Positions 4,060 to 8,157 of a stretch of 64,000 nucleotides of DNA are shown piece after piece. The stretch covers positions 1 to 64,000 of the forward strand of contig NZ_JAUG01000003.1 of the NCBI RefSeq assembly GCF_000708285.2, given 5' to 3'. The DNA comes from Pedobacter borealis DSM 19626 (GTDB lineage: Bacteria; Bacteroidota; Bacteroidia; Sphingobacteriales; Sphingobacteriaceae). Position 1 is the stretch's first letter. Each line of letters opens with the position of its first letter. Made by a program: the position numbers and the translations under genes. The notes beneath the pieces are model-generated. The model did no database searches. It worked only from the letters and a program-made list of their open reading frames with translations, and was not told the DNA's origin.

Positions 4060-5649
4060 TTACAAAGTCGATTGCAATAACTGCCTCAAATCTTCCAAAG
4101 TATTAATTTCATGGGCTTTTTTATCTTTTCGCCACCGAAATATACGCGGAAAACGCAAAGCTAAACCTGCTTTATGCCGTTTACTTTCAGCAATTCCCTC
4201 GAATGCAATTTCGAAAACCAGTTCGGGTTTTACGGTACGTACCGGGCCAAATTTTTCAATTGCATTACGGGTTACAAAGGCATTTACTTCTTTAATTTCT
4301 TTATCTGTTAAACCCGAATAGGCTTTTGCAATCGTGACTAAATTTTCTCCATCACGAACAGCAAAGGTATAATCGGTAAAGAAATTAGCCCTTCTGCCAC
4401 TTCCTTTTTGTGCATAAATCATTACCGCATCAACCGTGTAGGGATTGATTTTCCATTTCCACCAATCGCCCCGTTTTCGTCCACTATGATAATGAGAGGT
4501 CAACTTCTTCAACATAATCCCCTCGCTGTTAATCGATCGGGATGTTTGCCTTAATTTGGCCAATTCTTCCCACGAATGGCAATTGATTACCGGAGATATC
4601 ATCACCGGACTTTCAGCTAAACCACCAATCAACCCTTCGAGTATTTTTCGTCTTATACTTAAAGGTTCTTCTCTAAAATCCTTGGCTTCATATTCTAAAA
4701 TATCATAAACAAAAAAGCCAATGGGTGCATCTTCCAATTGTTTTTTACTAATCGTTTTGCGGTTTAAACGTTGTTGCAGCGTACTGAATGATAAAACCTG
4801 TTTATCTTGCACAGCCAGTATTTCACCATCTAAAACCACACCGTCAGGCAAAACATCAATCATAAAATGCAATTCGGGGAACTGTTCTGTAACCAGTTCT
4901 TCGCCACGGCTCCAGATAAAGAGTTCTCCATTCCGTTTTACAATCTGCCCGCGGATGCCGTCCCATTTCCATTCGGCCTGCCATTCAGAAATATCACCCA
5001 ATTTCTCTGGTTCTTGCTCTAAGGCATAGGCGAGGCAAAAGGGGTAAGGCCAGGAATTATCGGTATTTACATGGATACCATTTATCAGTTCGTGAAAAGT
5101 AATTTCATAAGGATTCCATTTCCCCATAATGCTATGCATAATCTGGGCGCTATCTAAACTGCTTTGTTTAGCCAGCGCATTCACGAGCATTTTATTGGAA
5201 ACACCAATCCTGAAATTTCCAGAAATCAATTTGTTAAAAATAAAACGTTCCTGTGTTTCGAGTTTATTCCATGCGCTCAGAATAAATTCTTTTTTAGTTT
5301 CATCGTCTTTACCTTCCAGATCGTGCAAATCTTCAACCCATTTATGCAATTGAAAATCTGAGGTGTTTTCGGCAGGCGGCAATAACAGGGCGATGGTTTC
5401 GCTTAAATCGCCAACATTGGCATAACTTTCGGCAAATAACCATTCTGGCGTTTCGGTAATGTTTATAGCCCAGTATTTAAGCAGGGCTGATTTAATTGGT
5501 CTTTTAGGTTTTTTACCTGTAAACAATGCGATAACCCACACCTTATCTTTATCATCAGCATGGTTAAAATAATTAACCAATGCCGCGATTTTATCGTTGG
5601 TTTTATTGCTCAGTTCGAGCTGTTGGATCAATTGGGCAAAACGTTTCAT
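4060..5649 (-). CDS. ATP-dependent DNA ligase of the repair cluster
   Basis: A 529-residue ATP-dependent DNA ligase (TIGR04120). Motif I is EWKWDGIRGQ, giving Lys228 as the adenylated nucleophile (KxDG). Downstream are VVLDGEILA (motif III/IIIa region), SEGIMLKK (motif IV) and the DWWKWKI motif V region. The first 200 residues form the helical DNA-binding domain and the C-terminus is the OB fold. It seals nicks and is distinct from the essential NAD-dependent LigA. It follows the Lexo gene by 2 bp, so the two are almost certainly co-transcribed and translationally coupled. Confidence 0.93.
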   Translation of the reverse strand: MKRFAQLIQQLELSNKTNDKIAALVNYFNHADDKDKVWVIALFTGKKPKRPIKSALLKYWAINITETPEWLFAESYANVGDLSETIALLLPPAENTSDFQLHKWVEDLHDLEGKDDETKKEFILSAWNKLETQERFIFNKLISGNFRIGVSNKMLVNALAKQSSLDSAQIMHSIMGKWNPYEITFHELINGIHVNTDNSWPYPFCLAYALEQEPEKLGDISEWQAEWKWDGIRGQIVKRNGELFIWSRGEELVTEQFPELHFMIDVLPDGVVLDGEILAVQDKQVLSFSTLQQRLNRKTISKKQLEDAPIGFFVYDILEYEAKDFREEPLSIRRKILEGLIGGLAESPVMISPVINCHSWEELAKLRQTSRSINSEGIMLKKLTSHYHSGRKRGDWWKWKINPYTVDAVMIYAQKGSGRRANFFTDYTFAVRDGENLVTIAKAYSGLTDKEIKEVNAFVTRNAIEKFGPVRTVKPELVFEIAFEGIAESKRHKAGLALRFPRIFRWRKDKKAHEINTLEDLRQLLQSTL

Positions 5650-5651
5650 CC

Positions 5652-6680
5652 TTATTTATTTTCGTTTTGATCAACCAGATCTACTTTATTTTCTTTATCA
5701 TCTTCTTGGCCAAATTTGGTTAACACTTCAGCAGCTTCTATGCCTGCATCGTTTAAAAACCGACTGAAGGCAGCTGTAAAACCATGCGTAACATATACTT
5801 TTTCCGCTCCGGTTGCAGTAATAGCTTCCATTAAGCCAGGCCAGTCAGCATGATCACTCAGCGCAAAGCCGGCATCGGCACTTTGCCAACGGCGGTGTGC
5901 CCGCACCTGCACCCAACCAGAGCAAATACCTGTTACCGGGTGGGCTAAATTTTTGATCCAGCGGCTATCTCTCATGGCTGGTGGCACAATTACAATACCT
6001 TTCTGCAATTCATCTTTAGTAGTTTCAGGAGTAATTCTGATGGTTTTTGGAAGCTTTACACCTGCGTCAATAATCAATTCATTCAGATTAGCAATACTGT
6101 TATGTACATAAATAGGAGTATCACCAGCCAAATTTTTAATTAAACGTTGTGCTTTACCCAAGCTATAGGCAATTAATACACTTGTTTTTTGCTGTATAAT
6201 ATTATCGCTCACCCAACTCTTGATGCCATTAAAAACAACTTCCTGCTTTTGCCATTTGTAAACAGGTAAGCCAAAAGTACTCTCAGAAACAAAAGAATGG
6301 CACTTTACAGGCTCGAAGGGTGTGGTAATGCCATCATCTTCAATTTTATAATCACCAGAGATTACACAAATTTCACCTTTATAAGCTAAACGTACCTGCG
6401 CAGATCCGATAATATGTCCGGCAGGAAAAAATGAAATATTCACTCCATTGCGGATAATGCTTTCTCCATATTCCAATGTTTCTACGTTCAAATCTTCGCT
6501 GATCCTGCGTTTGATGATAGGCTTGGTTAAGGTATGGCAGAGATAGTATTTATTTCCAAAACGCACATGATCGCTATGTCCATGCGTTGTAACCGCATAA
6601 TCTACAGGCCACCAGGGGTCTATATAAAAATCGCCTTGCTTACAGTAAATTCCTCTTTTGGTAAATTCTATTAATGCCAT
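5652..6680 (-). CDS. Ligase-associated DNA damage response exonuclease (Lexo)
   Basis: A 342-residue metallo-beta-lactamase/beta-CASP nuclease (TIGR04122). The metal-binding signature is HGHSDH (33-38), followed by AGHIIGSAQ and the SGDYK aspartate motif, and a late ALSDHADW histidine motif. Characterised relatives are manganese-dependent DNA exonucleases. It is the first gene of the cluster and is transcribed away from satD across the operator array at 6681-6835. A 26-bp perfect palindrome ends only 4 bp upstream of its ATG, so either a repressor or an RNA hairpin could control it. Confidence 0.92.
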   Translation of the reverse strand: MALIEFTKRGIYCKQGDFYIDPWWPVDYAVTTHGHSDHVRFGNKYYLCHTLTKPIIKRRISEDLNVETLEYGESIIRNGVNISFFPAGHIIGSAQVRLAYKGEICVISGDYKIEDDGITTPFEPVKCHSFVSESTFGLPVYKWQKQEVVFNGIKSWVSDNIIQQKTSVLIAYSLGKAQRLIKNLAGDTPIYVHNSIANLNELIIDAGVKLPKTIRITPETTKDELQKGIVIVPPAMRDSRWIKNLAHPVTGICSGWVQVRAHRRWQSADAGFALSDHADWPGLMEAITATGAEKVYVTHGFTAAFSRFLNDAGIEAAEVLTKFGQEDDKENKVDLVDQNENK

Positions 6681-6684
6681 AGCT

Positions 6685-6710
6685 ACTAAACAATAAATTT
6701 ATTGTTTAGT
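6685..6710. promoter_or_regulatory. 26-bp perfect palindrome upstream of the Lexo gene
   Basis: A perfect inverted repeat with 13-base arms ACTAAACAATAAA and TTTATTGTTTAGT and no spacer, 4 bp before the Lexo start codon. It differs in sequence from the three TATCGG palindromes next to it. It could be a second operator or, in the transcript, a hairpin over the initiation region. Confidence 0.65.
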
Positions 6711-6720
6711 TTTAGGTAAA

Positions 6721-6796
6721 TATCGGCTAAATGCCCGATAATTTAAAATATCGGCTAATTACCCGATAAATAGAAATATCGGCTAATTAGCCGATA
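6721..6796. promoter_or_regulatory. Three operator-like palindromes at 28-bp period in the Lexo/satD divergent region
   Basis: Three 20-bp units start at 6721, 6749 and 6777: TATCGGCTAAATGCCCGATA, TATCGGCTAATTACCCGATA and TATCGGCTAATTAGCCGATA. All have TATCGG/CCGATA arms, and the third is a perfect palindrome. The spacing is exactly 28 bp. The third unit ends 2 bp before the predicted satD -7 element, so a bound protein would block satD transcription and probably affect Lexo as well. Confidence 0.8.
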
Positions 6797-6797
6797 T

Positions 6798-6805
6798 TAG
6801 TTTTG
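6798..6805 (+). promoter_or_regulatory. Predicted satD promoter -7 element
   Basis: TAGTTTTG matches the Bacteroidota -7 consensus TAnnTTTG, 31 bp before the satD ATG and directly after the third palindrome. Confidence 0.55.
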
Positions 6806-6835
6806 AAATATGAATAATAAGTTCGATATTGTAAT

Positions 6836-7447
6836 ATGATTTGCATTATAACAGGTGATATTGTAGGCTCAAGGAAGATTAAAGATAGCTGGTTATTAAG
6901 CTTAAAAACCGCTTTAAAAATAGTTTCCGATCAGAATAATAAGTGGGAGATTTACCGGGGCGATAGTTTTCAGGTAGAAGTTGAGCCAGAAAATGCCATC
7001 AGGGCTGCTGCTTATTTAAAAGCATCTATCAGGGTAAATAAACCTGCAGATGTAAGGATGGGTATTGGAATTGGAGATATCAAAAACAAACGGAAAAAAC
7101 TTTCAGAATCCAGTGGAGATGCTTTTGTAAATTCAGGGGCGGCATTTGACAGTTTAAAACAGGCTAAGGTTAATTTAGCCATTAAAACTGATTCTGCTGA
7201 TTTTGATGAGGAAATTAATGTCTTAATTAAGCTTTCGCTAATATCAATGGATAGCTGGGGAGTTGTAGCTGCCGAAATGGTAAAACTTGCCTTAGAGAAC
7301 AATAATCTCTTGCAAAGCGAACTGGCGGCTATTTCGGGCCGAACGCAATCATCTGTAAGCGAAGCTTTAAAGCGTGCACATTATACCGAAATTATGGAAA
7401 TGGACAGGCTTTACCGTAAAAAATTGAACCAAATGATTTTAAAATAA
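6836..7447 (+). CDS. satD: SatD family protein with C-terminal helix-turn-helix
   Basis: A 203-residue protein beginning MICIITGDIVGSRKI, the N-terminal signature of the SatD family, named from the Streptococcus mutans sat (secretion and acid tolerance) locus; its biochemical role is unknown. Residues of about 150-195 contain LAAISGRTQSSVSEALKRA, which reads as a helix-turn-helix, so the protein may bind DNA, perhaps the palindrome array upstream (inference). Its TAA overlaps the ATG of the DUF3307 gene, which indicates coupled translation. A nine-codon frame from ATG 6810 ends in a TGA that overlaps its own start codon (ATGA). It diverges from the DNA repair cluster. Confidence 0.8.
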   Translation: MICIITGDIVGSRKIKDSWLLSLKTALKIVSDQNNKWEIYRGDSFQVEVEPENAIRAAAYLKASIRVNKPADVRMGIGIGDIKNKRKKLSESSGDAFVNSGAAFDSLKQAKVNLAIKTDSADFDEEINVLIKLSLISMDSWGVVAAEMVKLALENNNLLQSELAAISGRTQSSVSEALKRAHYTEIMEMDRLYRKKLNQMILK

Positions 7448-8157
7448 TGGATATCTATTTAATCAAGCTTATCCTTGTCCATTTAATTGGAGATTTCTTT
7501 TTACAGCCAAATGCTTGGGTAAAAGATAAAGAAAGGAAAAAATTAAGATCAATAAAGCTCTATTTGCACGTGGCCATCCACATAGTTTTGATATTCCTTA
7601 TTTTTTTAAACTTTGGCGTTTGGAAGGTAGCACTATCAATAGGGGTGCTTCATTTTGTGATTGACGCTTTAAAATCGATTTTTCAGAACAAAAAAAATGC
7701 ACGGATACTGTTTTTTGTTGATCAGGTTCTGCATTTTACTTCGATAATAGTGGTGTGGCACTTTTTTTATAAGGGAAGTTTAAACATCAGTTTTTTTAAT
7801 GAAACCAAAACCTGGGTTTTAATTACGGGAGCTTTATTTCTAACGATGCCTACATCTATTGTAATGCGGGTAATTATTGCCAAATGGCTTCCAGATAACC
7901 AGCCGGACAGCCCGCAATCATTACAAAATGCAGGTAAGTATATCGGGATACTGGAAAGAGTGCTGATCTTCTTGTTTATCTTAACCAGTCATTTCGAAGC
8001 TGTTGGTTTTTTACTCGCAGCCAAATCCATATTTCGGTTTGGCGATTTAAAAGAAGCACACGACCTTAAATTAACTGAATATGTATTGATCGGAACTTTG
8101 TTAAGCTTTGGAATAGCTATTGTAACGGCTATGCTTATTCAAATGTTTATTTTGTAA
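7447..8157 (+). CDS. DUF3307 domain integral membrane protein
   Basis: A 236-residue polytopic inner-membrane protein with about six hydrophobic segments. The N-terminus carries the DUF3307 hallmark HLIGDFFLQPNAW followed by a charged KDKERKK loop, and a second conserved HFVIDALK segment near residue 75. Function is unknown. It overlaps the satD stop by one base (TAATG), so the two act as a transcriptional pair. SatD-DUF3307 pairing suggests a regulator and a membrane partner, but nothing in the sequence identifies a substrate. Transcription probably ends at the hairpin at 8301. Confidence 0.8.
   Translation: MDIYLIKLILVHLIGDFFLQPNAWVKDKERKKLRSIKLYLHVAIHIVLIFLIFLNFGVWKVALSIGVLHFVIDALKSIFQNKKNARILFFVDQVLHFTSIIVVWHFFYKGSLNISFFNETKTWVLITGALFLTMPTSIVMRVIIAKWLPDNQPDSPQSLQNAGKYIGILERVLIFLFILTSHFEAVGFLLAAKSIFRFGDLKEAHDLKLTEYVLIGTLLSFGIAIVTAMLIQMFIL

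Follow-up and report, generated by a model that had tools for sequence, protein, structure and literature searches.

The tandem array of three palindromes located upstream of satD in Pedobacter borealis DSM 19626 is highly likely to be the operator of SatD, the product of the gene that it precedes. Comparison of satD loci gives good support to the views that the array belongs to satD and the adjoining DUF3307 gene, that its geometry is conserved, and that SatD would be its cognate binder. We consider SatD most likely to be a repressor that regulates its own gene through a tandem operator and that has an unusual sensor fold; copies of the array are also present in phages.

Palindromic array and its flanking genes

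The window, which is the whole stretch of 64,000 nucleotides that was analysed, carries the following features around the array.

6721–6740, no strand: putative operator palindrome 1, TATCGG-N8-CCGATA
6749–6768, no strand: putative operator palindrome 2, TATCGG-N8-CCGATA
6777–6796, no strand: putative operator palindrome 3, a perfect 20-bp palindrome
6836–7447, plus strand: satD (PF16264, 34.9 bits against a cut-off of 29, gathering score passed); the product is predicted to consist of an N-terminal palm/class III cyclase-like domain and a C-terminal helix-turn-helix (HTH) with its recognition helix at about residues 171–180, including E176
7447–8157, plus strand: partner gene of satD, encoding a DUF3307 membrane protein (PF11750, 101.6 bits)
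5652–6680, minus strand: ligase-associated exonuclease gene (TIGR04122), the divergent neighbour, judged to lie outside the satD system
6708–6713, minus strand: AAAACT box in the promoter of the exonuclease gene; 9 of 16 genomes with no array at this gene retain it less than 60 bp or at most 60 bp from the start
6801–6805, plus strand: TTTTG, candidate −33 element of satD right behind the array, proposed from the sequence and its relatives
6826–6831, plus strand: ATATTG, candidate −7 element of satD, which recurs by the start codon in relatives

The palindromes start at 6721, 6749, and 6777, and the start-to-start distances are 28 and 28 bp. These coordinates and spacings confirm the observation of an earlier note on this DNA, namely three palindromes at 28-bp spacing of which the third is perfect, and the array is not a chance occurrence. 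TATCGG-N8-CCGATA with up to two mismatches was found 11 times in the window against a mean of 1.46 and a largest count of 6 in 100 shuffled sequences, and the only exact matches among the 11 were the three array units. Exact matches in the whole 5,544,917-base genome were likewise limited to three places, all in this array. As 8 bp separate the half-sites inside one palindrome and 8 bp also separate adjacent palindromes, the array can equally be read as alternating half-sites, one per 14 bp. The flanking gene sets are as first described, since matches to TIGR and Pfam models identified the remaining minus-strand repair genes as ligase (TIGR04120), helicase (TIGR04121), and PdeM (TIGR04123), in addition to the genes listed above.

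The −7 consensus of Bacteroidota promoters is TAnnTTTG. The earlier note had the third palindrome adjoining a predicted satD −7 element, and TAGTTTTG at 6798–6805 does match this consensus there, but comparison with relatives favours another assignment. The ATATTG box sits 20 bp beyond TTTTG, just ahead of the satD start codon, and among 38 Pedobacter relatives read by eye the recurrent features are a T-rich TTTG-like stretch behind the array and an ATATTG or ATATTAG-like box at the start codon. We take the start-codon box to be the likelier −7 element, with the T-rich stretch as a possible −33 element. In loci such as L026–L029 and L033 the last half-site of the array runs into the matching start-proximal box, so that the array either borders on the likely satD promoter or extends into it. 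On the other side of the intergenic region, the exonuclease promoter region contains a perfect 26-bp inverted repeat at 6685–6710 (ACTAAACAATAAA/TTTATTGTTTAGT), whose exonuclease-side half recurs in relatives and whose other half does so less often.

Conservation of the array geometry at satD

satD was present in 107 of 201 genomes of the family. Loci were fetched for 85 of the 107, and 83 were analysed, the other two giving no tblastn match at E 1e-3. DUF3307 follows satD in all 83. Upstream regions were scanned for periods of 14–50 and site widths of 16–26, and a strong pair of like palindromes was defined by a score of at least 22. With this threshold, which was chosen once the first loci had been looked at, a strong tandem pair was detected in 73 of the 83 satD upstream regions (58 at 28 bp and 15 at 29 bp), the other 10 scoring below 22. 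Three of 120 control ORF upstream regions, drawn from 240, reached the same score, at periods of 15, 22, and 29. A sample from the phylum comprised 30 loci, one of them without a usable match, and 16 of its 29 satD upstream regions scored at least 22, all at 28 or 29 bp; 13 fell below 22 in this sample, in which some start codons were set too far downstream. All 44 satD loci from named genomes (43 from Pedobacter or Sphingobacteriaceae and one from Flavobacterium) showed palindromes 28 bp apart.

When family genomes were searched for the TATCGG palindrome pair with spacers of 0–30 allowed, 42 of 202 were positive, with a spacer of 8 or 9 among the matches listed. satD was present in 42 of 42 family genomes with a TATCGG array, compared with 107 of 201 overall. 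At least five TATCGG arrays in family genomes lie away from satD. Tandem palindromes at 28 or 29 bp directly upstream of satD were adopted as the working definition of a SatD operator, and the window locus has them. The earlier note was right to read the array as operator-like and to attach meaning to its exact period.

The longest TATCGG array found consists of six near-uniform palindromes at 28 bp before satD (locus L071, genome G100). Two loci of one genus, L065 at about 5303–5350 (G073) and L066 at about 5114–5161 (G052), contain, at a distance from satD, an additional pair of palindromes that are inverted copies of each other. In both loci the pair is found where a similar reading frame on the minus strand ends.

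Relation of the array to the repair operon

The array is flanked by two divergent genes, with 40 bp between it and the start of the exonuclease gene, and the earlier note proposed that one regulator controls both the repair operon and satD-DUF3307. In a specific form of this proposal, SatD would control the two divergent units from a shared operator in one response. Retention of the arrangement at 29 loci of the genus and the position of one prophage array at the end of a gene for SRAP (SOS-associated peptidase, PF02586) are both consistent with this idea. However, the repair exonuclease adjoins satD in only 29 of the 83 family loci, all in the genus of the window. Where the exonuclease is the neighbour, half-sites were callable at all 29 loci, and where it is not, at 43 of 54. 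Conversely, 18 genomes were searched, of which G034 and G140 yielded nothing beyond fragments or a remote paralogue; in the 16 examined, satD is absent or located elsewhere. None of these 16 exonuclease upstream regions (230 bp) contained a TATCGG-type site when two mismatches were tolerated, and the AAAACT box was kept in 9 of them. One of the 16, G145, encodes an exonuclease that is 94% identical and has the same start-proximal sequence, and the array is absent. As arrays occur at satD without the exonuclease and are missing at the exonuclease without adjacent satD, the array belongs to satD. The proposal of one regulator for both units was therefore not upheld, and a shared operator in the specific form above is unlikely. 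In the genus of the window, an array that stops 40 bp short of the exonuclease gene may still influence the repair promoter incidentally.

A repair-cluster regulon, in which the operator would recur at the exonuclease independently of satD, was also considered and rejected on the same count of 0 of 16.

Covariation of the half-site with the SatD recognition helix

Half-sites differ between lineages (TATCGG, TATCTG, TATCGC, TATGAC, TATCAC, TATAAC, TATAGA, and others, with TATTCC in Flavobacterium gelidilacus), and both arms of the palindrome change together. Half-site letters were compared with the SatD recognition helix using a partial Mantel test corrected for the distance between N-terminal domains. 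Of the 83 loci, 11 had no callable array, six others were dropped for a half-site that began with letters other than TAT, and near-copies were removed, leaving 56 non-redundant loci. Two of the six dropped loci (L007 and L014) were register errors rather than true exceptions. In a first run all six letters were used and some operators were placed in another register, and for these reasons the correlation was weaker (partial r 0.295, with 4 of 2000 permutations reaching it). The second run, designed after the result of the first, favoured a TAT start, dropped the rest, and used letters 4–6 only; it gave a partial r of 0.59, with 0 of 5000 permutations as high. Residue 176 covaried most strongly among 194 variable columns (0.75; next best, 0.51).

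A natural change of specificity was found within Pedobacter. SatD of Pedobacter sp. Leaf176 (L142) differs from that of P. frigidisoli (L135) at 18 of 203 residues. Among these differences are S172P, E176G, and H182N, which lie within or close to the recognition helix, and all six half-sites are TATCTG instead of TATCGG. P. jejuensis (L156) has the same SatD change together with TATCTG half-sites. A tree of the neighbouring repair proteins groups L142 and L156 with two TATCGG species in a four-member clade, and the best tree has two changes; the TATCTG half-sites of the two strains may have one origin. TATCTG also occurs in genus g4 with a different helix, QGRVSE or QGRISE. Among 13 genomes searched, TATCTG pairs were detected in five, each at satD only and each with a spacer of 8.

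Covariation with the recognition helix and the natural switch both sustain the earlier suggestion of SatD as the likely binder, and SatD very probably binds the palindromes. That a regulator other than SatD binds the array is very unlikely: phage arrays without satD could be taken to suggest such a protein, but the covariation peak falls on residue 176, in the recognition helix of SatD itself, and every array-positive genome carries satD (42 of 42).

Palindrome pairs in viral genomes

A search of IMG/VR with spacers of 0–30 allowed retrieved 21 contigs with a TATCGG palindrome pair, 15 at spacer 8 and six at spacer 9. As no other spacer was represented, phages carry palindrome pairs with the SatD geometry. 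The control half-site TATGCC gave no match in viral contigs. TATCTG gave four, two at spacer 8 (L189 and L191) and two in short tandem repeats readable as spacer 2 (L190 and L192). The 21 contigs are not independent, as six of them (L170, L172, L173, L174, L177, and L183) have in common, as judged by eye, a gene some 70 codons long. This gene is DUF6965 in the two tested, and several of these contigs have SRAP-like genes.

No satD was found in the fetched stretches of the 21 contigs, which are parts of contigs totalling 173,966 bases. A profile search with the SatD alignment identified one viral contig encoding SatD, and no array was found before that gene. One phage stretch searched against a phage collection gave no match, and a protein search of the stretch with Vibrio SatD gave none.

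The viral pairs occupy varied positions. Over 6,963 bases, L180 has the same sequence as the G088 locus, where the array precedes a terminase large-subunit gene; L172 is identical over 9,792 bases to the G185 locus, where the array lies beside an SRAP gene; and in L168 the array is upstream of a gene run leading to a terminase gene. Other viral pairs are located at gene ends. In the tRNA-bearing viral stretches that were scanned (L169, L171, L175, L176, and L186), the pair adjoins tRNA genes or falls between them. Outward from the phage arrays, TAnnTTTG occurred within 60 bp on 7 of 47 sides, whereas 400 random draws gave a mean of 3.8% and at most 12.5%, a result that is no more than suggestive. 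Location by tRNA genes or at gene ends argues against assigning the phage copies a single simple function at promoters. These copies may reflect phage use of a host sensor, silencing by the host, or something else.

The palindromes are highly improbable as RNA signals (terminators or processing signals) or inert tandem repeats: every unit forms an inverted repeat, gene ends are the site of some copies in phages and chromosomes, five tRNA-bearing viral stretches have the pair at tRNA genes, and tandem duplication can build arrays such as the six copies in L071, but the array is upstream of the likely satD promoter, its period and within-site spacing stay constant while the sequence of both arms changes together, and no viral pair had a spacer of 0–7 or 10–30.

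Predicted structures of SatD and DUF3307

SatD was modelled by AlphaFold with a pLDDT of 87.9 and a pTM of 0.87, and in this model the N-terminal domain is a palm/class III cyclase fold. Fold comparison of the palm domain (residues about 1–121) matched GTP cyclohydrolase III (Z 10.2 over 109 residues, 2.7 Å rmsd), Cmr2/Cas10 (Z 9.5), and GGDEF domains and adenylyl cyclases (about 9), with Z of 8–10 for the fold as a whole; Foldseek gave probabilities up to 1.00 with a best E-value of only 1.3e-3. SatD resembles these class III cyclases and palm enzymes in fold, and its acidic residues D8 and D43, invariant in 30 of 30 relatives, are candidates for the two metal-binding Asp residues of the superfamily. 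Active class III cyclases have a catalytic Asn-Arg pair. SatD differs from class III cyclases in its joined HTH and in that no invariant pair of this type was present in the alignment of 30 relatives, so SatD may bind rather than cyclise a nucleotide. We infer a nucleotide-binding sensor, maybe one that does not cyclise. In PHROGs, SatD gave weak HTH matches.

DUF3307 matched the phage membrane-protein family phrog_2470 in PHROGs (E 5.2e-15). Eight residues are invariant in 25 sequences (H12, D16, H41, H45, H69, D73, D92, and H96), a set of His and Asp that is suggestive of a metal site in the membrane. The structural model of DUF3307 was poor (mean pLDDT 58.6, pTM 0.34). PADLOC, in a 2023 version older than the description of Panoptes, gave no match for SatD or DUF3307.

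Proposed mechanism and comparison with known systems

We propose that the C-terminal HTH of SatD contacts the half-sites, and that neighbouring palindromes would be filled every 28 bp, probably cooperatively; cooperativity is suggested because the period is fixed. A half-site step of 14 bp corresponds to about 1.3 helical turns, so the protomers would wind round the DNA rather than lie on one face. Bound SatD would cover the satD-DUF3307 promoter, and the two-gene operon would repress itself. As the array is located at the satD promoter, its occupancy should block RNA polymerase, and from this position SatD most likely acts as an autorepressor rather than an activator. The cyclase/palm-like domain probably senses a nucleotide signal, upon which repression would be released and DUF3307 would be made.

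The name of the SatD family (PF16264) is familiar through the Streptococcus mutans sat genes, and the protein in the window scores above the Pfam cut-off for this family. DNA binding, an operator, and a cyclase-like fold are not described for SatD in the open-licence PMC literature searched. Two papers name the SatD and DUF3307 families (PMC10326533 and PMC8504454), and another deals with a different cyclase-like family, DUF2652 (PMC4886424). In Streptococcus pyogenes, satD is reported to be accessory (178 of 249 genomes) yet essential (PMC11323703). Such a combination would fit a repressor that holds a harmful product in check, and it bears indirectly on the possibility that satD-DUF3307 may be a toxin-antitoxin pair in which DUF3307 would be toxic unless SatD is present.

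Phages and toxin-antitoxin systems have autorepressors with tandem cooperative operators, and prophages carry LexA boxes. The SatD array is like the former in having several like palindromes at fixed spacing over the promoter of the regulator itself, and differs in that alternating half-sites every 14 bp (a 28/29-bp period) are kept while the recognised sequence diverges. As with LexA boxes, the operator of a host repressor is also found in phage DNA, but LexA is an unrelated protein, and SatD has tandem 28/29-bp arrays and a single target locus in the genome of the window. Panoptes optSE pairs an mCpol synthase with a membrane effector (PMC12657218). satD-DUF3307 is similar to it as two genes for a palm-fold nucleotide protein and a membrane protein, and differs in that SatD carries an HTH and is proposed to act at a promoter, and in that the partner is assigned to DUF3307 rather than to the S-2TMbeta effector.

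SatD and DUF3307 are widespread and known mainly by name, and the array, its rigid geometry, and the specificity switches give SatD a concrete candidate role and suggest that a cyclase fold has become part of a repressor. The SatD geometry in phage DNA raises the new question of what phages gain from a host repressor, or what harm it does them. A broader and tentative possibility is that SatD represents an unrecognised type of transcription factor, a palm/cyclase nucleotide sensor with an HTH that winds along DNA per 14 bp, and SatD-DUF3307 a guarded membrane-effector module; phages would exploit or fight the repressor through their own operator arrays, as prophages do with LexA boxes, and this contest would drive the joint change of operator and helix.

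SatD relatives on plasmids beyond the family

SatD relatives were found on five plasmid records, four of which have an annotated DUF3307 gene adjacent; the Pseudoalteromonas record is essentially unannotated. Palindromes precede satD at exactly 28 bp on the Vibrio lentus plasmid (TTAGCC) and on the Pseudoalteromonas plasmid (GTAACC). Upstream of satD, no palindrome array was found in Segatella or Sphingomonas, and a weak 28-bp repeat was recognised in Salinivibrio by eye only. On the Sphingomonas insulae plasmid (L259), the genes that adjoin satD-DUF3307 carry the annotations Pycsar effector, E2-associated protein, and cyclase; a TIR gene is also close by, and these surroundings possibly represent a defence island.
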